Assembly (NCBI RefSeq): GCF_900089075.1 | Contig: NZ_LT593747.1 | Span: 633,238 to 697,237 of the forward strand | Direction of reading: 5' to 3' | DNA: 64,000 nucleotides | Origin: Vaginella massiliensis | Lineage (GTDB): Bacteria; Bacteroidota; Bacteroidia; Flavobacteriales; Weeksellaceae | Part shown: positions 25,834 through 28,422 of the stretch, one piece after another | How positions within the stretch are numbered: position 1 is the stretch's first letter | Layout: every line of letters starts with the position of its first letter | Position numbers and translations under genes: made by a program | The notes under the pieces: generated by a model | The model's input: the letters and a program-made list of their open reading frames with translations, nothing else | The model's database searches: none | Told to the model about the DNA's origin: nothing

Positions 25834-26361
25834 TTATTTTTTTAACAACTCTTTGTATTTTATTAAAAATTTCTTCACTTTTTCGCTCACAACCGACTGG
25901 CAATAAGGGTTGTTGGGGTTATTTATAAAATATTGTTGGTGATAATCTTCTGCTTTATAAAAATCTTTCAAAGGTTCTATAAGCGTGGTAAATTTCACTT
26001 CTGCAGAGGCTTCATATTTTTGTTTAGACTGTTCTGCCAACTTTTTTTGTTCTTCGGAAAGATAAAAAATGATCGATCGGTATTGCGTCCCCACATCATT
26101 CCCTTGCCTATTGAGTTGGGTTGGATCGTGTACATTCCAAAAAATTTCTAAAAGTTTCTCATACGATATCACACTGGGGTCGAAAACAATTTTCACCACC
26201 TCGGCATGGTTTGTATTTCCTGTGCAAACATCTTCGTAAGACGGATTGGCTACATTACCTCCTGCATAGCCCGATATTGCTTCATCTACGCCATTCAACA
26301 ATCCAAAAACGTGCTCTACACACCAAAAGCAACCTGCTCCAAAAACTGCTATTTCTTTCAT
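25834..26361 (-). CDS. msrA: Peptide methionine sulfoxide reductase MsrA
   Basis: A 175-residue repair enzyme that reduces the S-form of methionine sulfoxide in proteins. The active-site motif GAGCFWCVEHVF (catalytic Cys of GCFWC, about residue 10) is at the N-terminus, with SGYAGG and HAEVVKIVFDP following. No MsrB domain is fused. It lies 24 bp after the Lrp-type regulator gene on the same strand. Confidence 0.95.
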   Translation of the reverse strand: MKEIAVFGAGCFWCVEHVFGLLNGVDEAISGYAGGNVANPSYEDVCTGNTNHAEVVKIVFDPSVISYEKLLEIFWNVHDPTQLNRQGNDVGTQYRSIIFYLSEEQKKLAEQSKQKYEASAEVKFTTLIEPLKDFYKAEDYHQQYFINNPNNPYCQSVVSEKVKKFLIKYKELLKK

Positions 26362-26385: not shown

Positions 26386-26850
26386 TTATATCTTTACTTG
26401 ATAAGCCAAACTGTCTTTCAATTCGCTGATCACAAATGTACTATGCGTGCTACCAATACCCTGAATATTGGTCAATCCATTTACCATAAATTCACGATAA
26501 TCGTCCATGTTATTGAAAGCCATTTTGATGATATAATCGTAATCGCCGCTTACATGGTAACAACATAGAATTTCTTTCCTTTTCAAAATATCTTGCTCAA
26601 ACGCTTTAATATTGTCGTGCGTATGCTCTTTGAGTTTGATATGGCTCAACACCAACAATTCTTTGTTGATGAGTTTGCGATTGATGATCGCCACATACTT
26701 GTCGATTATTTTATTTTTTTCTAATTTCTTGATTCTCTCGTGAATTGCAGTAGAAGATAAGTTCAACTTATCTGATAATTGTTTATAGGTGATTTTACTG
26801 TCTTCTTGCAGATAATCAAGAAGTTTTGCATCTATTTCATCTATTTTCAT
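26386..26850 (-). CDS. Lrp/AsnC family transcriptional regulator
   Basis: A 154-residue regulator with an N-terminal helix-turn-helix (IDAKLLDYLQEDSKITYKQLSDKLNLSSTAIHERIKKLEKNKII, residues about 4-48) and a C-terminal RAM ligand-binding domain (VLSHIKLKEHTHDNIKAFEQDIL to GIGSTHSTFVISELKDS). The family senses amino acids and regulates metabolism. It lies upstream of msrA on the same strand and divergent from metK, across a 312-bp gap. Confidence 0.92.
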   Translation of the reverse strand: MKIDEIDAKLLDYLQEDSKITYKQLSDKLNLSSTAIHERIKKLEKNKIIDKYVAIINRKLINKELLVLSHIKLKEHTHDNIKAFEQDILKRKEILCCYHVSGDYDYIIKMAFNNMDDYREFMVNGLTNIQGIGSTHSTFVISELKDSLAYQVKI

Positions 26851-27049
26851 CTGTGTTTAAGTTTGATCGTTGATATTTGTATAACAAATTAAAATCATTT
26901 TATTAATATTTCACAACTAAGAACGCTATTTTATAGATTATTATTCTATATTGACTAAAATAATGACTCGCAAAACAGAGTTTTATTCTGTAAACGAACA
27001 ATTTCTGAATAATATTTTTCAGAGCATCGACAATTTGTTTGGAAAACCT
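26851..27049. other. Intergenic region between Lrp-type gene and metK leader
   Basis: AT-rich, non-coding. It contains a small ACAGAG/CTCTGT-like hairpin near 26974-26994 that may be incidental. No promoter with both elements was found for the Lrp-type gene. Confidence 0.4.
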
Positions 27050-27057
27050 TATATTTG
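27050..27057 (+). promoter_or_regulatory. -7 element TATATTTG for metK
   Basis: TATATTTG fits TAnnTTTG. Transcription is expected near 27061-27063, a few bases ahead of the riboswitch, so the switch lies at the very 5' end of the mRNA. Confidence 0.6.
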
Positions 27058-27067
27058 CTGAAAATTT

Positions 27068-27119
27068 TCAGGGAGGAAAGATTTGTCTGATTGCAACCTC
27101 ATAAAACAAGCGCTAAACC
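27068..27119 (+). ncRNA. SAM-II riboswitch in metK leader
   Basis: The sequence follows the SAM-II core order: a P1 strand GAGG (27073-27076), GATTTG (27080-27085), TTGCAACC (27091-27098) with the closing CCTC strand (27097-27100), TAAAACA and CGCTAAACC (27111-27119). Known SAM-II RNAs share GAUUUG, UUGCA-CC, UAAACA and GCUAAA in this order, the last forming the pseudoknot with the first loop. Expected role: binding of S-adenosylmethionine stabilises the pseudoknot and reduces metK expression. The start codon is 44 bases downstream, further than in most SAM-II cases, so the exact readout (initiation or another mechanism) is open. Confidence 0.83.
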
Positions 27120-27162
27120 AGAATAGTCTTCCCTTCTATTTTCAAAAAAATAATTATTCATT

Positions 27163-28422
27163 ATGTCATATTTATTCACCTCAGAATCAGTTTCAGAAGG
27201 GCATCCAGATAAAATTGCAGATCAGATTTCCGATGCTATTTTAGACCATTTCATCGCATTCGATAAGATGAGTAAAGTAGCTTGCGAAACTTTGGTGACT
27301 ACAGGTCAAGTAGTATTAGCTGGAGAAGTAAAATCACAATCATACATCGATTTACAAAAAGTAACTCGAGATACCATAGCCGAGATTGGGTACACGAAAA
27401 GCGACTACATGTTCGATGCAAATTCTTGCGGAATTTTATCGGCCATACACGAGCAATCACCAGATATCAACCAAGGTGTTGAGCGATCTACAGAAGAAGA
27501 GCAAGGAGCCGGCGACCAAGGAATGATGTTCGGATACGCCACCAACGAAACCGAAAATTACATGCCGTTGGCATTGGCTTTGTCTCATAAATTGTTGGAA
27601 GAATTATCGAACATTCGCAAAAACGAAACCGATCTTCTACCCTATCTACGTCCAGACGCCAAGGCACAAGTAACCATAGAATATGATGACAACAACAAAC
27701 CTGTTCGAATAGATACTATCGTCATATCTACGCAGCACGACGATTTTGCAAACGAGCAAGCCATGCAAGAGAAAATCTACAACGATTTGGTCAACATCTT
27801 GATTCCTCGCGTCAAAGCATCCTTACCAATCCACATCAGAGATTTATTCAACGAGGATATTACCTATCATATCAACCCAACAGGGAAATTCGTGATTGGT
27901 GGCCCACATGGTGATACTGGACTCACTGGTCGAAAAATCATCGTGGATACTTACGGTGGAAAAGGTGCGCACGGTGGTGGTGCTTTTTCTGGTAAAGACC
28001 CGTCTAAAGTAGACCGTTCTGCTGCCTATGCTGCACGCCACATTGCGAAAAACTTGGTTGCTGCAGGAGTTGCTGACGAGGTTTTGGTGCAAGTATCCTA
28101 TGCAATTGGGGTAGCAGCACCAGTATCTTTATTGGTCGACACCAAAGGTTCTGCAAAAGTAGGCATGAGCGACGGCGAAATCTCAAAAATCATTTCGGAG
28201 CTTTTCGATATGCGACCATTTGCGATCGAACAACGTTTGAAATTGCGCAATCCTATCTACAAAGAAACCGCGAGATATGGTCACATGGGACGTGAGCCTC
28301 AGACCGTTCACAAAACCTTCAAATCTGCCAATGGCGTAGATGAAATCAAAATGGAGGTTGAATTGTTTACGTGGGAAAAATTAGATTTTGTCGATAAAAT
28401 TAAGGAAGCTTTCAAATTATAA
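27163..28422 (+). CDS. metK: Methionine adenosyltransferase
   Basis: A 419-residue enzyme that makes S-adenosylmethionine from methionine and ATP. Visible motifs are [24 protein letters not shown] (ATP and metal binding), [15 protein letters not shown]-like [27 protein letters not shown] and [22 protein letters not shown]. Full length for the family. It is headed by a SAM-II riboswitch, giving feedback by its own product, and closed by a terminator. Confidence 0.97.

Follow-up and report, generated by a model that had tools for sequence, protein, structure and literature searches.

A long-loop SAM-II riboswitch in the metK leader of Vaginella massiliensis and a downstream strand that may compete with its aptamer

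In the 64-kb window (the whole stretch of Vaginella massiliensis DNA that was analysed), the leader of metK runs from a promoter box, TATATTTG (27050-27057), through GGGAGGAAAGATTTGTCTGATTGCAACCTCATAAAACAAGCGCTAAACCAG, to the ATG at 27163 (Table 1). An Lrp/AsnC regulator (26386-26850, minus strand) is divergent from metK and is followed by the methionine sulfoxide reductase gene msrA (25834-26361, minus strand), a gene order common to the bacterium's own genus and to the sister genus g22; the surroundings of metK are a methionine-related neighbourhood. Since the flavobacterial sigma-A box sits at -12 to -5 (PMC9723704), transcription is predicted to start near 27062, 11 nt ahead of the GAGG of P1, which would put the SAM-II switch described below at the extreme 5' end of the transcript. 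The position of the box, together with the match to the SAM-II model, bears out the first-pass annotation of this DNA, which had proposed a SAM-II riboswitch right at the 5' end of the metK leader. P1 begins 15 nt below the TAnnTTTG box in the window, and this motif is found 6-25 nt ahead of P1 (median 14) in 124 of 140 distinct leaders. A perfect palindrome, CTGAAAATTTTCAG, occupies 27058-27071 between the -7 box and the aptamer; it may be bound by a protein or may have arisen by chance. We rejected it as a conserved operator, since only its core, AAAATTTT, is kept in the three species of the genus, the arms are not, and the core is missing from the sister genus.

Table 1. Features of the metK leader and gene in the window.
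Feature	Position	Strand	Basis or remark
-7 box TATATTTG, Bacteroidota sigma-A type	27050-27057	+	Sequence; TAnnTTTG common in relatives' leaders
SAM-II (long-loop) aptamer, RF01726	27067-27126	+	cmscan, full-length match
P1 5' strand GAGG	27073-27076	+	Pairs with CCTC 27097-27100; Rfam structure line, base exchange in relatives
P1 3' strand CCTC	27097-27100	+	Rfam structure line, base exchange in relatives
Pseudoknot helix 5' strand CTG	27087-27089	+	Sequence; partner CAG 27119-27121
Pseudoknot 3' strand GCTAAACCAG	27112-27121	+	GCTAAA block and CAG conserved
Proposed anti-P1 element AGTCTTCCCTTCT	27125-27137	+	Predicted partner of 27071-27076 and 27078-27083 without SAM
metK, S-adenosylmethionine synthetase, 419 aa	27163-28422	+	Three Pfam S-AdoMet_synt domains

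The SAM-II (long-loop) model RF01726 matched the leader with 59.6 bits (E 6.3e-9; cmscan of the window with Rfam 15, gathering cut-off 44 bits). The alignment covers model positions 1-60 of 60 without truncation, and no other Rfam 15 family exceeded its cut-off in the whole 64 kb. A search with the SAM-II covariance model was the check that the first-pass annotation had named for its reading, and the ordered core that it listed (GATTTG, TAAAACA, CGCTAAA) is also there, with every block present and in the correct order. No second RF01726 match was found elsewhere in the genome (2.43 Mb, 9 contigs), which likewise has no match to SAM-I (RF00162), for which the controls were positive. The classical SAM-II model RF00521 had no match in the genome, 14 control genomes being equally silent, and was not among the matches at E up to 1 within 26900-27300. 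The P1 stem and the P2 pseudoknot are kept through base exchanges among relatives: the second pair of P1 is A-U in 89 and U-A in 32 (n = 130), and the pseudoknot shows C-G pairs with a few U-A and A-U exchanges and also some mismatches, every pair counted being standard in the window. Judged by its sequence, and lying as it does in the 5' leader of a SAM gene, metK, the element is a SAM-II riboswitch of the long-loop form. An aptamer of this class would be expected to bind SAM and to discriminate against SAH.

The RF01726 element is present in 54 of the 60 genomes of the family and in 138 of the 196 genomes of the order, and metK lies downstream of it in all 54 loci of the family and wherever else in the order the downstream DNA could be read. 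SAM-II was already noted in the Bacteroides group in 2005 (Corbino et al., PMC1273637), and the long-loop form was described in 2010 from 'Bacteroidetes, marine' (Weinberg et al., PMC2864571), with which our aptamer shares the phylum and the whole length of the model, without difference. The SAM-II leader of metK is an aptamer of known type, ordinary for this group of Bacteroidota. Five metK leaders of the same family (L179-L183, from genomes G007, G058, G041, G016 and G015) have no recognisable SAM-II aptamer. Genera g16 and g17, whose aptamer-less genomes include near-complete ones, seem to have lost it. In three strongly reduced genomes of 0.6 Mb (G095, G195 and G208, family f16), sub-threshold RF01726 matches of 28-29 bits are perhaps a decaying SAM-II element.

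The alphaproteobacterial SAM-II or metA element (RF00521) shares P1, the pseudoknot, a transcription start just ahead of P1, the association with methionine and SAM genes and a presumed OFF mode of action; in the first SAM-II paper its expression platforms were placed downstream of P2 and the start site a few bases ahead of P1 (PMC1273637). Many of the alphaproteobacterial cases have an intrinsic terminator, whereas no hairpin with a U-run was found between the aptamer and the ATG of our leader (plus strand, 27126-27163). The ATG lies 45 nt past GCTAAA and 41 nt past the final pseudoknot base, close to the 44 bases below the pseudoknot given by the first-pass annotation. That annotation had taken the distance to be unusually long, but 45 nt is, if anything, on the short side against a median of 74 nt from GCTAAA to ATG across 140 metK leaders, of which three, the window among them, have 45 nt or less. 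It had also pointed to a small hairpin between switch and start, with arms at 27120-27126 and 27137-27143. The complement does exist (AGAATAG with CTATTTT), but the 3' arm is one base off, at 27136-27142, and the stem is worth -2.1 kcal/mol alone. The minimum free energy (MFE) fold does not contain it and instead has these bases in a predicted helix with the P1 strand of the aptamer. No such stem appears in the predicted folds of two genus mates (L022 and L026) either, and we consider it highly improbable that this hairpin is the expression platform. The suspicion that the readout differs from the textbook one is supported, albeit for another reason, namely a downstream strand that is complementary to the aptamer.

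Folding of 27062-27162 in its SAM-free, pseudoknot-free state (the folding tools leave out the SAM-bound pseudoknot) gave as MFE structure a single long hairpin of -17.1 kcal/mol with a pair probability of about 0.95. In this fold 27071-27076 pair with 27132-27137 and 27078-27083 with 27125-27130, the CUG/CAG helix of the pseudoknot being retained, and the predicted hairpin competes directly with P1. The whole leader folds with a z of -1.69, and spacer-only shuffles gave -1.99 (p 0.04); taken by itself, the anti-P1 duplex does not reach significance (z -0.65, p 0.24). In the genus mates L022 and L026, 13 and 14 pairs, respectively, form in the register of the window, and one variable aptamer base pairs with the same downstream position as A-U in L001 and as G-C in L022 and L026; in the sister genus this position is A-U or U-A where paired. 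A swap test inside the short-spacer clade (16 leaders) gave a p of about 0.03. On these models, an anti-P1 strand in the window itself is likely, and 27125-27137 would probably displace the P1 5' strand (27071-27083) as a strand-exchange switch.

In regards to the metK leaders at large, 129 were compared side by side and 120 were used for the complementarity statistics. Their spacers, from aptamer to ATG, match the 5' half of the aptamer as complements more closely than chance would allow: downstream stretches such as GTCAAATCTTC, GCCAAATCTTCC and TTTGCAATCA are the complements of aptamer GATTTGAC, GATTTGGC and TGATTGCAA. Against dinucleotide-shuffled spacers, the pairing of spacer and aptamer 5' half had a mean z of -2.28 in the 120 leaders, with p<0.05 in 62.5% of them, as opposed to +0.07 for the same spacers paired with 25 nt of upstream non-transcribed DNA. 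With row and column effects removed, the leaders' own aptamers left a residual of -2.98 kcal/mol, compared to 0.00 +/- 0.21 for swapped ones, and none of 2000 partner permutations matched it, a figure inflated by the shared ancestry of the leaders, which shuffles and permutations alike retain. The partner also follows when the aptamer changes, as TTTGGC does with GCCAAA in L151, L154 and L162, and whole-leader folds have a mean z of -2.56. These data suggest that the downstream strand competes with the aptamer and would be its switch partner. The aptamer itself being expected, this strand is the part worth following; it turned up nowhere in the main texts of the openly searchable papers, and the main-text passages on SAM-II in Weinberg et al. 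(PMC2864571) do not mention a complementary downstream strand.

The complementarity in this species could also be a roleless relic, with a simple SAM-II switch whose pseudoknot, 41 nt ahead of the ATG, would by itself lower ribosome entry. The weak anti-P1 statistics in the window fit such a switch, as does the SAM-II switch of Sinorhizobium meliloti metA, which likewise controls an AUG far downstream of its aptamer, at 74 nt (PMC9373788). However, the S. meliloti switch needs a Shine-Dalgarno sequence within itself (PMC9373788), of a kind that Bacteroidota mRNAs do not have or use (PMC6847099), the genus mates retain the pairing despite exchanged bases, and spacer-aptamer pairing is general in the order, all of which makes a role for the pseudoknot alone rather unlikely.

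The reading that we hold to be probable is an end-product feedback on metK through the long-loop SAM-II riboswitch, with a strand exchange by the downstream anti-P1 element. Aptamer, promoter and metK can be read from the sequence, and from them we infer the switching steps. With ample SAM, its binding would lock P1 together with the P2 pseudoknot. Under SAM shortage, the pyrimidine-rich 27125-27137 would capture the P1 5' strand and P1 would open, while the CUG/CAG helix would persist, leaving one long hairpin and the final 25 nt ahead of the ATG free. Binding of SAM would thus free the downstream strand, and metK expression would go down. In long-spacer relatives the freed strand is predicted to pair with A-rich bases just ahead of the ATG, which could stand in for Shine-Dalgarno masking in Bacteroidota, where mRNAs are without Shine-Dalgarno sequences and the efficiency of initiation depends on local structure and on A-rich bases upstream of the start (PMC6847099).

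In order to evaluate this last step, the accessibility of the start (-18 to +6) was computed with the aptamer free to pair (SAM-free) and with the aptamer withdrawn (SAM-bound). The predicted drop was 0.118 for spacers longer than 73 nt, 0.054 for those of 61-73 nt and 0.007 for those of 60 nt or less, compared with 0.029, 0.009 and 0.003, respectively, in shuffled spacers. Strong masking of the start is predicted in L029 and L031, for example, where ACAAAAGAAAT ahead of the ATG pairs with AGTTTCTTTTGT in the spacer. The SAM-bound fold of long-spacer relatives is predicted to bury the bases ahead of the ATG; for the short-spacer clade, to which the window belongs, the folds predict nothing of the kind. 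A pairing of spacer CCCTTCT with AGAAGGG of metK (first 45 codon bases) had a z of -1.9 in the window but was rejected as no better than controls: across the 120 leaders, spacer and coding sequence pair with a mean z of -0.35, against -0.08 to -0.53 at control offsets. Given that masking is not predicted, a terminator was not found and coding-sequence pairing does not exceed controls, the candidates for the last step in this clade would be another translational effect or Rho-dependent termination. For the window, a lowering through translation is more likely than intrinsic termination.

If Rho were the effector, SAM bound to the same aptamer would lay open a spacer rich in C and U and poor in G, on which Rho could load; without SAM this site would be hidden inside the anti-P1 helix. 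The lack of an intrinsic terminator, and of predicted start-site masking in the clade, would agree with this, and the composition is suitable, with seven C and one G at 27122-27162 and 21% C, 10% G and 45% T in spacers overall. Any strand complementary to the purine-rich aptamer strand will nevertheless be rich in pyrimidines, so this is not separate evidence, and the long-spacer relatives look translational; we judge termination by Rho to be unlikely.

Whether strand exchange is a common platform is evenly balanced in our view: metK SAM-II leaders of Bacteroidota might share a downstream pyrimidine-rich strand that pairs with the purine-rich aptamer 5' half when SAM-free and, when SAM is bound, pairs in many clades with the A-rich stretch before the ATG where the ribosome lands. 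If so, bacteria without Shine-Dalgarno sequences in their mRNAs would have a riboswitch platform suited to them. The comparison yields a testable model of translational riboswitch control in such a phylum. Long- and short-spacer clades are set apart in it, and SAM binding may be read out differently in the two. Finally, Flavobacterium aptamers contain one or two extra hairpins, 40-50 nt in total, between the P1 3' strand and GCTAAA (L070, L077, L104, L113, L116, L119, L120 and L133), which stretches the Rfam match in such genomes to about 105 nt.
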